From positions 186,001 to 250,000 of the forward strand of contig NZ_VYXP01000002.1 of the NCBI RefSeq assembly GCF_008725655.1: 64,000 nucleotides of DNA. The letters are read 5' to 3'. The stretch is from Marinihelvus fidelis (lineage in GTDB: Bacteria; Pseudomonadota; Gammaproteobacteria; Xanthomonadales; SZUA-36). A program made the translations under genes and the position numbers. Of this stretch, positions 8,440 to 41,393 are shown piece by piece. Within the stretch, counting starts at the first letter, position 1. Each line of letters starts with the position of its first letter. The notes beneath the pieces are model-generated. The model saw only the letters and a program-made list of their open reading frames with translations, did no database searches and was not told where the DNA came from.

Positions 8440-9168
8440 TTATGGCGTGGCCGCGTCGATGCAGTCGAGCATGGTGTAGCGCCCGGGCGACCGTGAACAT
8501 AACCAGCGGGCCGCGTGCAGGGCCCCAAGCGCGAACAGCCGCCGGTCGTTGGCCACGTGACGAATTTCGATTTGTTCGTCGGCCAGTTCCAGCACCAGGT
8601 GGTGCTCGCCGATGGCGTCGCCCTCGCGCACGCTGTCGTATTCGACGTCGCCACCAATGGCTTCGCCCAACACTAACGCCGTGCCTGACGGCGCGTCCAG
8701 CTTGCCGGCGTGATGGATATCCAGTATCCGCGCCGGCGCGTCCGTGCCGACGAGTTCTCGCAGGCGCTTCGCCAGCACGAGGCAGGCGTTCAGGCCGATA
8801 CTGAAGTTGGCCGCCCATAACAACGGAATCTTCGCGGATGCCGTATCCAACTCGGCGCGCGCGGTCTCGTCCAGGCCAGTCGTGCCACTAACCAGGGGGA
8901 CGCCGTTGCCCGCGCACCACTGCGCCACGCTCGCGGCCCCTCCGGGCAGGCTGAAGTCGATGATGACGTCTGGCCTGACGACCAGCTGCTCCGGCGATGC
9001 CGCGTAGAGGTCTTCGGTAAGCCAGTCCGGCTGGTGACGGGCGATGACGCCGACCAGGCTGAAGCCAGCCGATTCCGAGGCCTCGGCCAGCTGTCGACCC
9101 ATGCGACCGGCACCGTGCAGGGCCAGCCTGGGGCGGTGCCCGCCTGTCGATGGGCGTGTTTCGCTCAA
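8440..9168 (-). CDS. dapB: 4-hydroxy-tetrahydrodipicolinate reductase DapB
   Basis: DapB reduces the dipicolinate precursor with NAD(P)H in the lysine/diaminopimelate pathway. The 242-residue product is somewhat shorter than the usual ~270. It has the dinucleotide-binding [10 protein letters not shown] (about 18-27) and the catalytic [14 protein letters not shown] motif with its active-site histidine and lysine. The start is a TTG that overlaps the dnaJ stop as TTGA; no ATG lies before the nucleotide-binding loop, so the TTG is well supported. It is probably co-translated with dnaJ, as in related genomes. Confidence 0.95.
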
Positions 9169-10298
9169 GGCGTCATCCGGTCGAAGAACTCCTTCACACC
9201 ATCCAGCCAGCCCCGCGAGCGCGGGTGGTGGGTGGCGCTGTCACCAGAGGCCGTATCAAACTGACGCAACAGGTCTTTCTGCTCGCGGCTCAGCTTCACC
9301 GGCGTTTCCACCACCACGCGGCACATCAGGTCGCCACGGGCGCGGCTGCGGACGGACTTCACGCCCTTGCCGCGCAGTCGGAACATCTTGCCGGTCTGTG
9401 TCTCGGCCGGAACCTTCAATTTAACCTGGCCGTCCAGGGTCGGCAGTTCCAGCTCGCCACCCAGTGCGGCCGTCGTGAACGGCACCGGGACTTCGCAGTA
9501 CAGGTTGTCACCGTCGCGCTCAAACAGCGGGTGCTGGCGCACGCGCACTTCAACGTAGAGGTCACCGGGTGACGCGCCGTTGGGGCCCGCTTCGCCCTCG
9601 CCCGCCAGGCGAATGCGATCGCCGTTGTCGACGCCCGCGGGAATCTTCACCGACAGCGTACGGGTTTCCCGCACGCGGCCCTGACCGTGGCAGTCGCCAC
9701 AAGGATTGGCGATGGTCTGCCCGGCGCCATGACAGGCCGGACAGGTCTGCTGAACGGAGAAAATGCCCTGCTGCATACGGACCTGGCCGGCGCCGCCGCA
9801 GGTACCACAGGTTTCCTTCTTGCCGTCCTTGGCGCCGGAGCCCTTGCAGGTCTTGCAGCTGCCCAGGGTCGGCACGCGGATCTCGCGTTCCACACCGCTG
9901 ACGGCTTCTTCCAGGTCCAGTTCCATGGCAAAACGCAGGTCGGAGCCGCGCGCCTGCGCACGGCCGCCACCACGGCGTCCCTGGCCGAAAATATCCCCGA
10001 AAATGTCGCCGAAGATGTCGCCGACGTCACCCTGAAAGCCGCCCGGCCCGCCCGGGCCGCCACCCATGGACGGGTCGACACCGGCGTGACCAAACTGGTC
10101 ATAGGCCTGGCGCTTACGGTCGTCCTTCAGGACCTCGTAAGCCTCCTTGGCCTCGGTGAATTTTTCCTGCACCGTGGCGTCATCGGGGTTGCGGTCGGGG
10201 TGGTACTTCTGCGCCAGGCGGCGGTACGCCTTTTTCAGCTCGTCCGCACTCGCGCCCCGCTCCACACCGAGCACCTCGTAGTAATCGCGTTTTGCCAT
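9165..10298 (-). CDS. dnaJ: Chaperone DnaJ (Hsp40)
   Basis: DnaJ delivers unfolded substrates to DnaK and stimulates its ATPase. The 377 residues show the full type I layout: a J domain with the HPD motif (KYHPDRNP, about 32-39), a Gly-rich linker ([10 protein letters not shown]), and four CxxCxGxG zinc-finger repeats beginning [24 protein letters not shown] and CGDCHGQG. The substrate-binding C-terminal domains follow. It is separated from dnaK by about 3.9 kb of other genes, unusual for this family. A possible heat-shock promoter lies in the 95 bp upstream. Confidence 0.98.
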
Positions 10299-10346
10299 TG
10301 CTCGCTCTGAAACCGTTGATTGTCATTGTGTTTTTGACTCCCCCAG

Positions 10347-10375
10347 ATGTGAGGTCCGGGGGCACGGAATTCAAG
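10347..10375 (-). promoter_or_regulatory. Possible weak sigma-32 promoter before dnaJ
   Basis: On the minus strand CTTGAAT (10369-10375) lies 14 bases before CCTCACAT (10347-10354). The -35 is good but the -10 is a poor match to CCCCATNT. It would give dnaJ a heat-shock promoter now that it is separated from dnaK. The match is suggestive only. Confidence 0.3.
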
Positions 10376-10393
10376 CGGCAATTTGGGCTGGAA

Positions 10394-11587
10394 TCAGCCC
10401 AGTCGTGCCACGCCCTCGGGCAGCTGCAGCGACTGCTGCGCGCGCTCCAGGCCGGCGGCAAGATCCGCCACCAGGTCCGCGGCGCGCTCGATGCCCACCG
10501 AAAGGCGCAGCAGGGTCGGCGCGATGCCGGCCTCGGCCTGCGCCTCTTCGCTCATGGCGGCGTGGGTCATGCTGCCCGGATGGCAGACCAGGCTCTCGAC
10601 ACCACCCAGCGACTCGGCCAGCGTGAAAAACTTCAGCCCATCGAGGAACGCCCGCACCTGCGCCTCGCCACCCGCCAGCTCAAAGCTGACGATGGAGCCG
10701 AACAGGTCCTGCTGGCTGGTGGCCAGGGCATGATCCGGATGCGACTTCAGTCCCGGCCAGTTCACCTGCTTCACGGCCGGGTGGCCGTCCAGCGCGGTGG
10801 CCACTTCGGCCACGTTTTCCTCGTGACAGCGCAGCCGCGCGTGCAGCGTGCGCAGGCCGCGCATGACCTGCGAGCAGTCCCACGGCGACGCGGTCGAGCC
10901 GACGCAGTTCGCCCACCAGGCCAGCTGCTCCAGCAGTTCGGACTCGCGCGCCACCACGGCACCGCCGACCACGTCACTGTGGCCATTGATGTACTTGGTG
11001 GTGGAATGCACGACGATGTCGGCGCCCAGATCCAGCGGCTGCTGGCCCAGCGGCGTCAGGAAGGTGTTATCGACCACCAGCAGCGCGCCGCACTCGCGGG
11101 CGATGGTCGCCACGCGGCGAATGTCGGTGACACGCAGCAGCGGGTTGCTCGGCGTTTCCACCCAGATGATGCGCGGGCGAATCTCGCGGCACTGGCGGCG
11201 CAGCGCGTCCAGGTCGCAGAAATCCAGGAACCGGGTCTTGAAACGGCCGATGTTCGCCAGCGAGTCGAACGCCCGGTAGCAACCGCCGTAGCAGTTGTGC
11301 GGTGCGACGATGGTGTCGTTGGGGCCAAGCAGGAACGTCGGCAGCACCACCGCGGACATGCCGGTGTTGGTGATGACGGCGCCGGTGCCGTTCTCGAGCT
11401 GCGCGATGGCGTCACCCAGCTGGTCGCGGGTGGGGTTGCCGCTGCGGGAATAGTCGTACTCGCGCTTGCCGCCCAGGCCCTCGAAGCTGTAGTTCGTGGA
11501 CAGGTACAACGGCGGCATCACCGAACCGTGCTGTGTGTCGGAGTCAATTCCGGCGCGGACGGTCTGGGTGATTCGATTGCGTTTCAT
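10394..11587 (-). CDS. metB: Cystathionine gamma-synthase family PLP enzyme (MetB-like)
   Basis: This enzyme family joins cysteine (or sulfide) to an activated homoserine in methionine synthesis. The 397-residue product has the Cys/Met-metabolism PLP fold: the YSRSGNPTRDQL substrate-loop motif (about 46-57), NTGMSAV, VVDNTF (171-176) and the PLP lysine in STTKYINGHSD (Lys198). It could be cystathionine gamma-synthase or a close O-acyl-homoserine sulfhydrylase; sequence alone favours the former. A SAM-I riboswitch lies in its 5' leader, which independently supports a methionine role. A small hairpin (GGGCTG-ATTC-CAGCCC) overlaps its stop codon. It lies between dnaK and dnaJ, which are usually adjacent. 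Confidence 0.93.
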   Translation of the reverse strand: MKRNRITQTVRAGIDSDTQHGSVMPPLYLSTNYSFEGLGGKREYDYSRSGNPTRDQLGDAIAQLENGTGAVITNTGMSAVVLPTFLLGPNDTIVAPHNCYGGCYRAFDSLANIGRFKTRFLDFCDLDALRRQCREIRPRIIWVETPSNPLLRVTDIRRVATIARECGALLVVDNTFLTPLGQQPLDLGADIVVHSTTKYINGHSDVVGGAVVARESELLEQLAWWANCVGSTASPWDCSQVMRGLRTLHARLRCHEENVAEVATALDGHPAVKQVNWPGLKSHPDHALATSQQDLFGSIVSFELAGGEAQVRAFLDGLKFFTLAESLGGVESLVCHPGSMTHAAMSEEAQAEAGIAPTLLRLSVGIERAADLVADLAAGLERAQQSLQLPEGVARLG

Positions 11588-11590
11588 GGC

Positions 11591-11640
11591 TAGGCCTCAT
11601 TTCCAGTATTAATATCGATAAATACTCACTGGAAACTCCG
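11591..11640 (-). promoter_or_regulatory. Hairpin next to the metB ribosome binding site
   Basis: On the minus strand TTTCCAGT and ACTGGAAA form a stem that continues with TATT/AATA and ends just before GAGG, seven bases from the metB ATG. The 3' arm GGAAATGAG repeats the P1 3' strand of the riboswitch (GGAAATGAG), so alternative pairing is possible. A translational switch is inferred. Confidence 0.45.
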
Positions 11641-11710
11641 GCCTTTGGCGGAGGGGCCCGATCCCATCACCCTGCTGGTTAAACTGTGGTCGCGGGGTGC
11701 TGACCGAACA

Positions 11711-11826
11711 CTCATTTCCCGGAAACCTCGATGGGCTTCCGCAGGAGTTGGCACCTTTTCGGAGTGGTTAACCCCCGAAGGTTGCCCCGGCGTCTAAGGG
11801 CCTGTCCCTCTGCCGGTCTCAATGAG
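11711..11826 (-). promoter_or_regulatory. SAM-I (S-box) riboswitch in the metB leader
   Basis: Read on the minus strand, this 116-nt stretch has the S-box core: P1 closed by CTCATT (11821-11826) and AATGAG (11711-11716), then AGAGGGACAGGCCCTTAGA, CCGGGGCAACC, and AAAAGGTGCCAACTCCTGC. These are the conserved SAM-I landmarks in the right order and spacing. It follows a good promoter directly and precedes metB by about 120 nt. S-adenosylmethionine would repress the gene. The expression platform appears to be the hairpin just before the ribosome binding site rather than a clear poly-U terminator. Confidence 0.93.
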
Positions 11827-11838
11827 TTGTAGCGAACT

Positions 11839-11866
11839 AGTTTACCGGCAACTGGCGGACTGTCAA
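11839..11866 (-). promoter_or_regulatory. Sigma-70 type promoter for the SAM riboswitch and metB
   Basis: On the minus strand TTGACA (11861-11866, perfect -35), a 16-base spacer and TAAACT (11839-11844) precede the riboswitch by about 12 bases. Transcription would start almost exactly at the aptamer. Confidence 0.75.
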
Positions 11867-11870
11867 GGTG

Positions 11871-11905
11871 GTGACGGGTGACGGGTGACGGGTGACGGGT
11901 GACGA
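11871..11905. repeat. Tandem heptamer repeat, GTGACGG x4 plus GTGACGA
   Basis: Five 7-bp units directly abut the upstream side of the metB -35 element. On the opposite strand the unit is CCGTCAC, one base from the GTCACGC family at 131 and 14198. A looser GGCGCGCT repeat follows at 11947-11972. The rest of 11906-12029 shows nothing recognisable apart from a GGAGGG ribosome binding site at 12018-12023. Confidence 0.85.
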
Positions 11906-12029
11906 TCAGGGTGCGCTGTGGGTTGGGAAGGCAAGTCTGTCGGTTTGGCGCGCTGGCGCGCTGGCGCGATGGGGTGGACTGGACTACGGTTGAGCGGGTT
12001 GCGGGGGCTTTCTTGATGGAGGGTACGTG

Positions 12030-12692
12030 ATGATGAATCGAGCAGTTGCTGCTTGGGTGGTGATGGGGTTGATGGCGGGCACGGGTTCTGCGTTGGCGGA
12101 CTGGACGGATGCGGCCTGTGAGGTCTATCCGAAGGGTGAGGACCACGCCAGTGCCTTCGTGCCGTGCGTGTTCAGCCAGCGCCAGGGCGCCGTGACCATC
12201 ACGCTGGAGGACGGCACTGTCTACGACCTGCGGCCCGTGGGCGATGACCCCGGCAACTACGAAGACCAGGACGGCAACGCCGCCTACCGCAACAGCGGAC
12301 TGGGCGACCAGGGACTGATTTTCCGCTTGGCGGAGGAGTCGGTATATGTGTACTGGAACACCGATGCCCTGAATCCGCCGGCCGATGAAGATAACTGGAC
12401 CGCGCCGTTCACCACCGCCGACTACGACGCCACCACACGCCTTCGCTGCAAGGCGGCCGGCGATGACGAATTTGGCAGCTGCCCCGCCGGCATCGCGCGT
12501 ATGGAAGACCAGCAGGCTTCCATTACCGTGCAGAACCAGCTGGGCGAACAGTTCACGATCAACTTCATGACCGACTACGTGAATGCCACCAACCGCGAAC
12601 TGGAGGCCATCCTGGATGGCGACACCTGGATCCTTAACTTTGCCAATGGCGAAGTGTGGGAGGTGCCGATGGCCGCGATTGAGGGCGACTGA
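12030..12692 (+). CDS. Secreted protein of unknown function
   Basis: The 220-residue product starts with a Sec signal peptide (MMNRAVAAWVVMG... cleaved near ALA-DWTDA), so the mature protein is periplasmic or exported. The start was chosen by GGAGGG six bases upstream of the ATG at 12030. The mature part has about four cysteines and several acidic, beta-rich stretches (VTITLEDGTVYDL, AEESVYVYWNTD). I recognise no family. It is the only plus-strand gene between metB and recN and faces the 454-residue gene convergently with a 4-base gap. Confidence 0.8.
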   Translation: MMNRAVAAWVVMGLMAGTGSALADWTDAACEVYPKGEDHASAFVPCVFSQRQGAVTITLEDGTVYDLRPVGDDPGNYEDQDGNAAYRNSGLGDQGLIFRLAEESVYVYWNTDALNPPADEDNWTAPFTTADYDATTRLRCKAAGDDEFGSCPAGIARMEDQQASITVQNQLGEQFTINFMTDYVNATNRELEAILDGDTWILNFANGEVWEVPMAAIEGD

Positions 12693-12696
12693 AACG

Positions 12697-14061
12697 TCAG
12701 GGTGCCTGGGCGTGCAGCGATGCAGGCAACGGGATCATCCAATGCTCACCGCGCCCCGTCCAGCGCAGCGTCAATTGCAGGGTCTCACCGTCGGGGCCGA
12801 TGGCCAGGTCGTCGCCCGGGTCAACGAGCTCGGCCGGGCGATCTTCCAGCAGGGACTGCGCTGAACGCCCCTGACCTGCGTTCTGGCGCAGCCACGCCAG
12901 TGTGCCCAGTGCGCGCAGCCGGGCACCATGGTCCTGCACCCGCAGGTCGTAGTCACCGTAGGCTGGCAGTGCAATCTGATCCAGGACGCAGCCGGCCAGG
13001 TTGCTGATGCATTCGAACCGCCAGAGAGTCGCCTGTCGTTGTGGGTGGGTGACGAATGTAGAACGCTCATCCCCGGAGGCGCCCTCCCCCCTGCAAGCCG
13101 GAACAAACCCCTCCGCCCTCAGGCCAAGAGACGCTTCCGGATCAAGGGTGAGCTTCGTTAGCATTCGATCGAGAGTACTTTCTTCCTGCTCAACCAGGTC
13201 GTGCAGGTACTGATTATCGACAAAGGCGAACTCCCCGCGCATGGCGTTGCACAACGACAGTTCGCTGCTCGTGGGTGGCGCCAATGCTTCGTCGCACGCG
13301 CTCGGCAACGATTCGTCGGCGGGCAGCTCGGCCAGCATTTCGGCGAACAGGCGGCCATTTTCGCGGCTGCTGTACGCGATGCCGATCATAAGGGTAATCA
13401 GGCTGTCCGACTGCACGCCCAGGCGACGCCACGTGGTGATGTCGCGGCAGATTGACGACAGTGCCTGCTGATGCGCTCCGTTTGCAAACTGGACGGCGTG
13501 GCGGGTACGCAGGTAACCCGCGCTATTGGAGTTTGGCCAGGGTGAGTGAATGGTGTAAGGAAATGCCGAGCGTACGTGACCGTAATGTTGCAGCCGTTCG
13601 ACACGATCCAGCAACGGTGCATACCGTTCCACGAGGGCGTTGTACCTGTCGGGGTCGGCCATTACCCGTTGCAGGCAACCGGGCTCGAGCCCTTTGCAAA
13701 AGAGTTGCCGGTCCTCGTCACTGACGCCGAGATCGGGATAGGCGTTCGCTGCCGAAGACGACCGCTCGGGCACACCGCCCTCAATACTGGGTGGTGCGTA
13801 AGGCTCCAGATCAAAATTGCGGACATCCTCATCCAGCACCGCCTGCATATCCCCGTCTGGCACATCACGCTCGAGCGTCCAGAGCAACGCATAAGCATTC
13901 TCCCCTTCGAATTCCGGCCAGGCGCGCAGTACCTCGATGGCCTGTCGCTGCGCTTTGGTGGGGTACATCATCCGGGACACGCCCCACAGCGCGACCAGCA
14001 TGAACAGCAATAGCAGGGCCAAAATAATGAGCCACTTTAGAGCAGCCTGGACGTTTTGCAT
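12697..14061 (-). CDS. Membrane-anchored protein of unknown function
   Basis: The 454-residue product has one N-terminal transmembrane segment (about residues 9-30, WLIILALLLLFMLVALWG) and a large domain presumably in the periplasm. That domain is mostly helical, with scattered cysteines (for example FCKGLEPGC) but no motif I know. A GGTGA-like ribosome binding site precedes the ATG. It lies just downstream of dnaK and its terminator, so it is probably transcribed separately. Together with metB it separates dnaK from dnaJ. Confidence 0.75.
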   Translation of the reverse strand: MQNVQAALKWLIILALLLLFMLVALWGVSRMMYPTKAQRQAIEVLRAWPEFEGENAYALLWTLERDVPDGDMQAVLDEDVRNFDLEPYAPPSIEGGVPERSSSAANAYPDLGVSDEDRQLFCKGLEPGCLQRVMADPDRYNALVERYAPLLDRVERLQHYGHVRSAFPYTIHSPWPNSNSAGYLRTRHAVQFANGAHQQALSSICRDITTWRRLGVQSDSLITLMIGIAYSSRENGRLFAEMLAELPADESLPSACDEALAPPTSSELSLCNAMRGEFAFVDNQYLHDLVEQEESTLDRMLTKLTLDPEASLGLRAEGFVPACRGEGASGDERSTFVTHPQRQATLWRFECISNLAGCVLDQIALPAYGDYDLRVQDHGARLRALGTLAWLRQNAGQGRSAQSLLEDRPAELVDPGDDLAIGPDGETLQLTLRWTGRGEHWMIPLPASLHAQAP

Positions 14062-14127
14062 TGATCACCCATTTCCGTGTGATTATGAACGAGTGTACTA
14101 CATCACTAAAACAGCTATCAACGCACA

Positions 14128-14158
14128 AAAAAAGCCCCGCCAACCGGCGGGGCTTTTT
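14128..14158 (-). terminator. Rho-independent terminator after dnaK (bidirectional)
   Basis: A GC-rich stem AAGCCCCGCC / GGCGGGGCTT with a 5-base loop is flanked by A-run and T-run on both sides. On the minus strand it ends in a run of T about 70 bases after the dnaK stop. Confidence 0.9.
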
Positions 14159-14227: not shown

Positions 14228-16147
14228 TCACTTCTTGTCGTCGTCGACCTCTTCGAACTCGGCGTCGACCACGTCGTCACCGCTGTCCGCTGAAGCGTCC
14301 GCGTCGGCACCCTCGCCCTGCTGGGCCTGGGCCTCGGCGGCGGCCTGCTGGTAGATCACCTGGCCGGCTTCGGTCAGTTTCTCTACTGCGGACTCGATGG
14401 CGGCCTTGTCGTCGCCCTTCATGGCTTCCTCGACGCCTTCGATGGCGGACTCGACCTTGGCCTTGTCGTCGTCACCGATCTTGTCGCCCAGTTCCTTCAG
14501 GCTGGAACGGGTGGCGTGGACCATGGCGTCGGCGTTGTTGCGGGCGGAGACCAGTTCCTGGAATTGTTTATCTTCTTCCGCGTGCGCCTCGGCGTCCTGC
14601 ACCATTTTCTCAATCTCGTCATCGGACAGGCCGGAACCCGCCTTGATCTCGATGCGCTGTTCCTTGCCGGTGGCGTTGTCCTTGGCGCTGACGTGCATGA
14701 TGCCGTTGGCGTCGATGTCGAAGGTCACCTCGATCTGCGGCATGCCGCGCGGGGCGGGCTGGATGCCGGCCAGGTCGAAGCGTGCCAGTGACTTGTTGGC
14801 GCTGGCGATTTCACGCTCGCCCTGCAGTACGTGCACGGTCACCGCGGACTGGTTGTCCTCGGCGGTCGAGAATGTCTGCGACTGCTTGGTCGGGATCGTG
14901 GTGTTCTTCTCGATCAGCTTGGTGAACACGCCACCCAGCGTCTCGATACCCAGTGACAGCGGGGTCACGTCCAGCAGCAGCACGTCTTTCACGTCGCCGG
15001 CCAGCACACCACCCTGGATGGCGGCGCCCACGGCGACGGCCTCGTCCGGGTTGACGTCCTTGCGCGGCTCCTTGCCGAAGAATTCCGTCACCGCTTTTTG
15101 CACCATCGGCATACGGGTCTGGCCACCGACCAGGATCACGTCGTTGACGTCGCTGACCTTCAGGCCGGCGTCATCCAGCGCCGTGCGGCACGGGGCAATG
15201 GTGTTCTTCACCAGGTCTTCCACCAGGGCTTCCAGCTTGGCGCGGGTCAGCTTGATGTTCAGGTGCTTGGGACCGGAGGCATCGGCTGTGATGTACGGCA
15301 GGTTGACTTCGGTCTGCTGGCCTGAGGACAGCTCGATCTTGGCGCGCTCGGCCGCCTCTTTCAGGCGCTGCAGCGCCAGCGGGTCGTTGCGCAGGTTCAC
15401 GCCCTGGTCCTTGTTGAACTGGTCCACGAGGTAGTCGATGACGCGGTTGTCGAAGTCCTCACCACCCAGGAAGGTGTCGCCTGAGGTCGACAGCACCTCG
15501 ATCTGGTGCTCGCCGTCCACTTCGGCGATCTCGATGATGGACACGTCGAACGTACCGCCACCCAGGTCGTAGACCGCGACCTTGCGATCACCGCCCTTCT
15601 TGTCCATGCCGTAGGCCAGCGCGGCCGCAGTCGGCTCGGAGATCACCCGGCGCACGTTCAGGCCGGCGATCTTGCCGGCGTCCTTGGTGGCCTGGCGCTG
15701 GTGGTTGTTGAAGTAGGCCGGGACGGTGATGACCGCTTCTTCCACGGTCTCGCCCAGGTAATCCTCGGCAGTTTTCTTCATCTTCATCAGCACGCGTGCG
15801 GACACTTCCGGCGGCGCCATCTTCTTGCCGTCAACTTCCACCCAGGCGTCGCCGTTGTCGGCCTTGACGATGGTGTAAGGCACGATGTCCTGGTCCTTCT
15901 GGACCACCTTTTCGTCGAACTTGCGGCCGATCAGTCGCTTGACGGCAAACAGCGTGTTCTTGGGGTTGGTGACGGCCTGGCGCTTGGCGGACTGGCCGAC
16001 CAGCACCTCGTCGTCTTTCGTGAATGCCACGATGGAAGGCGTCGTGCGATCGCCCTCCGAGTTTTCGATGACCTTGGGCTGGCCACCTTCCATCACAGCC
16101 ACGCAGCTGTTGGTGGTGCCGAGGTCAATACCAATGATCTTGGCCAT
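14228..16147 (-). CDS. dnaK: Chaperone DnaK (Hsp70)
   Basis: DnaK is the ATP-driven Hsp70 that binds and releases unfolded polypeptides with DnaJ and GrpE. The 639 residues match the family. The ATPase domain opens with [14 protein letters not shown] (4-17) and contains [13 protein letters not shown] and LVGGQTRMP. The linker [16 protein letters not shown] precedes the peptide-binding domain, and the C-terminus is an acidic tail ending EEVDDDKK. It follows grpE by 124 bp, in which a second sigma-32 type promoter lies. A Shine-Dalgarno (GGAG) is nine bases upstream of the ATG. Confidence 0.99.
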
Positions 16148-41028: not shown

Positions 41029-41393
41029 GGGGGCGACCTGGCTTCGACGTGGGTCGTGAAACCCGAGGTGCATGCCGAGCTGCAAGCAACTCGTTAAAAG
41101 GTTTGCAAACAAGTTAGTTGCCAACGACGACAACTACGCACTCGCAGCTTAAACACCTGCCGTAGTGCCCTCCGCCCGGAGCTTGCCCGTGAGCACCGGA
41201 GCCCGGGGGTCGACCCACACGGGATCGCGATGAAGCACGCCTGGTGTGGATTCGTTAAAACCTCATCCAGGCTCGCTGGTGGTTTTCCCTCGCCGATCGG
41301 GTAGCCCACAGCTAAATTAATAGATCGACTAAGCATGTAGAGCCAAAGGCGAATCACTTGCGGACGCGGGTTCGATTCCCGCCGCCTCCACCA
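41029..41393 (+). ncRNA. ssrA: Transfer-messenger RNA (tmRNA)
   Basis: The 365-nt gene rescues stalled ribosomes with SmpB. The 5' end GGGGGCGACCTGGCTTCGAC and 3' end CGCCTCCACCA pair in an acceptor stem (GGGGGCG with CGCCTCC, one G-U), and a T-arm GGGTTCGATTCCC lies at 41368-41380. The CCA end is encoded. The tag frame starts at 41120 (GCC resume codon) and reads ANDDNYALAA then TAA at 41150-41152, differing from the E. coli tag by one residue (Asp for Glu). Pseudoknot-forming sequences follow. The 3' end serves as an integration site; see the repeats at 47951 and 52837. Confidence 0.98.
41380..41393 (+). repeat. Attachment-site repeat at the ssrA 3' end (attL of island 1)
   Basis: CGCCGCCTCCACCA, the last 14 bases of ssrA, recurs exactly at 47951-47964. 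Tyrosine-recombinase islands commonly insert in the 3' end of ssrA and regenerate it, so these two copies are the expected ends of an island of about 6.6 kb. Confidence 0.75.

Follow-up and report, generated by a model that had tools for sequence, protein, structure and literature searches.

A SAM-I riboswitch lies ahead of the methionine gene metB on the minus strand of the stretch of Marinihelvus fidelis DNA analysed here (64,000 nucleotides, hereafter the window). It would repress metB translation at high levels of SAM, through an exchange of the 5' strand of helix P1 between P1 itself and a downstream copy of the P1 3' strand, a reading that sequence comparison leads us to hold with a probability of about two in three. 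Comparison of related leaders shows that the helix formed by the P1 5' strand and the first J1/2 base with this copy is conserved and covaries in the window's family. The SAM-I element is ordinary for its order; what is noteworthy is not the element itself but which strand it appears to use and how that strand co-evolves with the platform.

Aptamer, leader and gene

The leader consists of the following parts, given in window coordinates and all on the minus strand.

11839..11866 (-): promoter-like site TTGACA-16-TAAACT, with the -35 box at 11866-11861 and the -10 box at 11844-11839
11709..11828 (-): SAM-I (S-box) aptamer, P1-P4, RF00162
11820..11827 (-): putative switching strand, the P1 5' strand ACTCATT plus the first J1/2 base, G
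11710..11716 (-): P1 3' strand AATGAGT, from the RF00162 alignment
11656..11709 (-): hairpin P5, between the aptamer and the sequestor, from RNAalifold on 23 leaders; arms GTTCGGTC (11709-11702) and GATCGGGC (11663-11656)
11624..11631 (-): downstream copy CAGTGAGT of the P1 3' strand, putative second partner of the P1 5' strand, in an 8-pair helix
11592..11644 (-): sequestor hairpin, AGGCC..TTTCCAGT with ACTGGAAA..GGCCT, in the predicted fold with P1 formed
11595..11600 (-): Shine-Dalgarno sequence ATGAGG, 7 nt 5' of the ATG
10394..11587 (-): metB, cystathionine gamma-synthase, 397 aa, TIGR02080 and PF01053

An earlier note on this DNA, made from the letters alone, had described a complete aptamer ahead of metB and named a covariance-model search as the check. 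The search bears the description out: RF00162 matches significantly at 11709-11828 (-), with 83.9 bits (family gathering score 44.4; E 2.3e-18), over model positions 1-108, and this is the single match in the whole 3.43 Mb genome. The match thus spans the full length of the model above the family threshold, and it leads a methionine gene on the same strand, with 121 nt separating the aptamer from metB. By sequence and structure, the element is a SAM-I (S-box) riboswitch. The metB product scores 539.5 bits against TIGR02080, for which the curated cut-off is 504.55.

The promoter-like site is the only one in 10200-12000, where shuffled sequences lead one to expect 0.3. Its -10 box ends 10 nt ahead of the aptamer, in agreement with the earlier proposal that the promoter is set to start transcription at the aptamer, and the start would lie near 11832. 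Across the order, sufficient upstream sequence was available for 140 of 141 leaders, and a site scoring at least 8/12 was found in 128 of these 140, with a median gap of 6 nt between the -10 box and the aptamer. The best -35 box contains TTGAC in 121/140 leaders, compared with 4/85 in a control region 140-200 nt upstream. Just upstream of the promoter in the window, 11868-11903 consists of a 7-base unit in head-to-tail copies (GTCACCC on the minus strand), and a similar run of 7-base repeats occupies the equivalent place in the near relative L039.

Downstream of the aptamer, hairpin P5 is conserved in the 23 leaders, several of its pairs being altered on both sides (RNAalifold). The sequestor that follows is predicted to combine a 5' arm containing the beginning of the copy with a 3' arm containing the GG of the Shine-Dalgarno sequence, so that the latter sequence lies in a hairpin when P1 is formed; a hairpin adjoining the ribosome binding site had been proposed before, and in the predicted fold it also takes in part of that site. 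No terminator-like site was found on the minus strand in 10200-12000, hence none between the aptamer and the gene, and an intrinsic terminator was rejected as the output. The lack of a T-run, the Shine-Dalgarno sequence in a predicted hairpin and a published homologue (PMC7270179) lend indirect support to the earlier suggestion that control may be translational.

A probable alternative partner for the P1 5' strand

In the conserved copy, TTTCC or a similar word leads into TGAG; the window has CAGTGAGT (11631-11624), which can pair with ACTCATTG of the P1 5' strand and J1/2. In the 23 leaders of the window's family (f1), which are all that the genome searches yielded, 89.7% of the 184 cells of this alternative helix are paired, a level reached in 0/500 shuffles, which average 83.1 +/- 1.2%; with slid versions of the helix the figure falls to 20-52%. 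Where the first J1/2 base meets the copy, 13 leaders have GC, 8 have CG and 2 have UA, and the pair is unbroken in all 23. The two columns change jointly three times on a tree that was built without them and in which most forks are weakly supported. Because the aptamer model has no partner for the covarying J1/2 base, plain duplication of P1 fails to explain it, and P1 in the same 23 leaders displayed no covariation. When RNAalifold was run on these leaders with no structure supplied, it predicted the alternative helix and not P1. Three leaders of one genus (g7; L011, L013 and L016) speak against it, as they contain a U-U mismatch within the helix. In the window alone, the alternative helix is unremarkable, being matched in 73/3000 shuffles.

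The earlier note had placed the competitor at the ribosome binding site, where the P1 3' strand is repeated. The repeat is real: the 9-mer GGAAATGAG occurs both in the P1 3' strand and at 11604-11596, and a second occurrence is rare by chance (3/3000 platform shuffles). The pairing of the P1 5' strand with this exact 9-mer also has a predicted energy of -96.7, close to the -96.9 of the other alternative. However, the word is not conserved, reading GGAAACGAGG in L009 and L003 and GGAAACCGAGG in L004, even though the MetB protein of L009 is 96% identical to that of the window, and only 62.8% of its cells with the P1 5' strand are paired over the 23 leaders, with no covariation. Moreover, such pairing would bury the GAG of the Shine-Dalgarno sequence when SAM is absent, the opposite of what one expects of a biosynthetic gene. 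The likeness to the P1 3' strand would need no role in switching, since GGAAA forms the pairing arm for TTTCC and GAGG is the Shine-Dalgarno sequence. We therefore rejected the copy at the ribosome binding site as competitor, for want of conservation and covariation, and regard it as very unlikely to be the switch partner; the notion of a second copy in competition for the P1 5' strand was right in kind, with the imperfect but conserved CAGTGAGT in the place of the exact repeat.

To compare the two strands of P1 across the order, P1 5' strands were swapped among loci and matched against the loci's own downstream regions in 2000 permutations, with a probe and region defined after the pattern had been noticed by eye. 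The P1 5' strand matched its own downstream region over 79 genera (z 7.2, 0/2000), over 141 loci permuted within families (z 4.6, 0/2000) and, weakly, over 79 genera within families with one locus per genus (z 2.5, 21/2000). By family, the values were z 4.1 (0/2000) in the window's own (23 loci), z 1.9 (72/2000) in f2 (40 loci) and z 2.4 (8/2000) in f9 (12 loci), and no signal was seen in f12 (48 loci; z 0.5, 652/2000). For the P1 3' strand, z was 1.9 over the 79 genera, and there was no signal in the window's family (z -1.2, with 1791/2000 permutations as high).

These results bear on the possibility of a translational SAM-I that switches by its P1 3' strand, with the downstream P1-like copy incidental. 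Such an arrangement is described, in the available text of PMC3656099, for yitJ of Bacillus subtilis, where the P1 3' strand switches. As far as that text goes, the window resembles yitJ in its RF00162 aptamer and in the opposition of P1 to a competing helix; it differs in output and strand: yitJ has a transcription terminator at its end and switches with the P1 3' strand, whereas the window is without a terminator and its 5' strand is the one supported. In f12, the P1 3' strand did match its own downstream region above the permutations (z 3.2, 6/2000). Against this, the canonical S-box exchange of the P1 3' strand with the platform is not seen in the window's family, where the z of -1.2 led us to reject that strand as competitor, the signal over the 79 genera is low, and the aptamer model leaves unpaired the J1/2 base at which the 5' helix covaries. 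We consider a switch through the P1 3' strand unlikely. The Shine-Dalgarno hairpin of f12 often reads CTCTCCGG..CCGGAGAG, with CGATG in the loop.

Extension of the helix into J1/2 was scored across the order in the 75 of 141 loci that have at least 5 pairs adjoining J1/2. Position 9 is paired in 57/75 (expected 0.46), position 10 in 39/75 (0.19) and position 11 in 60/75 (0.53); in the f12 and f9 loci among these 75, position 9 is unpaired. For 31 f2 leaders (one per genus), RNAalifold chose P1 and not the alternative, which speaks against the exchange, although at each of 8 positions 26-31 of the 31 leaders can form the pair with the aligned copy. The f2 leaders are too invariant at the helix, with one CG at position 9 (L208), for covariation to show there.

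Taken over the order Lysobacterales/Xanthomonadales, we give even odds to a general form of this arrangement, in which SAM-I riboswitches would switch by the P1 5' strand and the first J1/2 bases, opposite to the textbook S-box, and a co-evolving copy would adjoin the translation start or, in a few lineages, an intrinsic terminator. One strand would then serve several outputs (Shine-Dalgarno hairpin, anti-AUG and terminator). If this is true, either P1 strand can link a SAM-I aptamer to its output, a point of relevance to the rebuilding of riboswitch outputs, both by evolution and by designers. Comparison alone yields a specific alternative helix that is testable by two mutations.

In three loci (L007, L182 and L207), a hairpin and T-run follow the P1 copy by eye, so that the output of the P1 5' strand exchange may be a terminator in these leaders. 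Outside the order, L226 has a 12-pair match (G-U included) to the P1 5' strand and J1/2, located 69 nt past the aptamer, and L224 has a 7-pair match. From these two matches, the exchange may extend beyond the order.

Predicted states and competing mechanisms

With SAM bound, P1 would be locked, the copy would be kept in the sequestor hairpin and the Shine-Dalgarno sequence would be closed (OFF). Without SAM, the P1 5' strand would shift to the copy CAGTGAGT, which would block the sequestor and give the ribosome access (ON). Consistent with this scheme, 17 of the 18 leaders folded (of 23) have a more open region from -12 to +3 in the alternative state, while the Shine-Dalgarno sequence itself is more open in just 12/18; in the window, the latter is unpaired at 0.35 in the P1 state and 0.51 in the alternative state.

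Folding of both states, as the earlier note had advised, produced a Shine-Dalgarno hairpin with P1, but the energies favour P1 even when free of ligand. In the window, the minimum free energy of the P1 state is -104.6 kcal/mol vs -96.9 kcal/mol for the alternative, placing P1 ahead by 7.7; the advantage is 6.3 by ensemble and 6.9 kcal/mol for the stretch folded in the multi-locus comparison. The ensemble difference averages +5.0 over 18 leaders, in favour of P1. The alternative is energetically favoured in 2/20 leaders of the window's family and, among the 141 loci, in 25 of the 95 that have a helix of at least 6 pairs. No switch is visible in the minimum free energy fold of the window alone, and comparison is needed to find it. 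Co-transcriptional folding could account for energies that favour P1.

Two other mechanisms draw on these energies. The aptamer might be decayed or might not switch, a view whose one support is the ligand-free preference for P1. Its full length, a score similar to those of relatives and the conservation of the promoter-like site, hairpin P5 and gene order all argue against decay, which we find most improbable. Alternatively, two signals might act, SAM on the aptamer and uncharged initiator tRNA on the anti-Shine-Dalgarno strand, the latter freeing the Shine-Dalgarno sequence. A scheme of this kind comes from the homologous riboswitch of Xanthomonas campestris, in which translational control has been measured; according to the available text of that work (PMC7270179), the Shine-Dalgarno sequence stays paired without SAM, and uncharged tRNA-fMet was proposed to free it. 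The energies obtained here likewise favour the Shine-Dalgarno hairpin without SAM. By analogy, a two-signal switch may be considered for the window, and we judge it rather unlikely.

Occurrence, published relatives and gene neighbourhood

The earlier note had called SAM-I riboswitches patchy in gammaproteobacteria, and they are described as sporadic there in the available part of Barrick and Breaker (2007; PMC2258182). This holds for a class-wide sample, in which RF00162 was found in 9/276 genomes, 4 of the 9 carriers belonging to this order with the window's own genome included, but not for the order itself, where it was found in 320/397 genomes and 80/98 genera. RF00162 is present in 36/61 genomes when the window's own and its relatives are taken together, and it stands ahead of metB in 14/14 named relatives scanned (80 retrieved); a named carrier is Pseudofulvimonas gallinarii (L107). 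Three genomes of family f5 (G040, G051 and G067) have two SAM-I aptamers each, and nearly all other SAM-I-bearing genomes of the order have one copy.

A translational SAM-I of this order, SAM-I_Xcc, has been described in the metA-metB-hom leader of X. campestris (Tang et al. 2018, PMC6230763; 2020, PMC7270179). Judged by the available text of these papers, the window's riboswitch is like SAM-I_Xcc in combining a SAM-I aptamer with the methionine gene metB, no intrinsic terminator and a Shine-Dalgarno sequence in a predicted hairpin, and probably also in acting mainly on translation. It is unlike SAM-I_Xcc in that metB comes first in the window, between dnaK and dnaJ, and in that the window's copy lies in the 5' arm of the Shine-Dalgarno hairpin, whereas X. 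campestris has an anti-AUG element, AUGGC (Tang et al.), and no anti-AUG pairing with the start codon was seen in the window's predicted fold. In f2, CGATGGC occurs in the platform of 26/40 loci and is followed 25-37 nt on by GCCATG in 22 of the 26, so that the P1 copy could act there as an anti-AUG with SAM and could pair with the P1 5' strand without it.

The window's SAM-I is thus most likely of the published Xanthomonas kind, with switching by the 5' strand being the less well documented part. No description of P1 5' strand exchange in SAM-I was found in the text of one open literature collection; the exchange may already be contained in the published X. campestris model. The comparison suggests that knowledge from one Xanthomonas applies across most of a Gram-negative order. 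The SamR regulon of Xanthomonadales, which controls metB and other methionine genes (Leyn et al. 2014, PMC4239095), resembles the present case in the control of a methionine gene in the same order and differs in that SamR is a DNA-binding protein.

The earlier note had placed metB between dnaK and dnaJ. This is broadly true, with dnaK (14228-16147) upstream and dnaJ (9165-10298) downstream of metB and all three on one strand, but two more open reading frames intervene, and the arrangement is not an insertion peculiar to the window. The order dnaK-metB-dnaJ is found in 4/4 relatives whose contig carries both neighbours (L039, L040, L041 and L044); in L042 and L051, dnaJ alone is visible and the contigs stop upstream, and at the remaining 74/80 metB loci neither gene lies within the retrieved DNA. 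On this sequence comparison, the arrangement is inherited. The intervening frames, both between dnaK and metB, are 12697-14061 (-), of 454 aa, and 12027-12692 (+), of 221 aa. Neither has a match in Pfam or NCBIfam; in L039, the 454-aa frame has no match and the 221-aa frame has one of 58%.

After dnaK, 14125-14158 (-) forms by eye a strong intrinsic-terminator-like hairpin with a T-run, by which dnaK would be split from the metB unit. In the gap between metB and dnaJ, 10341-10376 (-), CTTGAATT followed by CCTCACAT resembles a heat-shock (sigma-32) promoter, and CTTGAATT is kept at the equivalent place in 6/6 relatives displayed. Because no terminator was found on the minus strand of the metB-dnaJ interval, dnaJ may be read from both promoters. 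Elsewhere in the window, a tmRNA gene is located at 41029-41393 (+) (RF00023, 218.4 bits).
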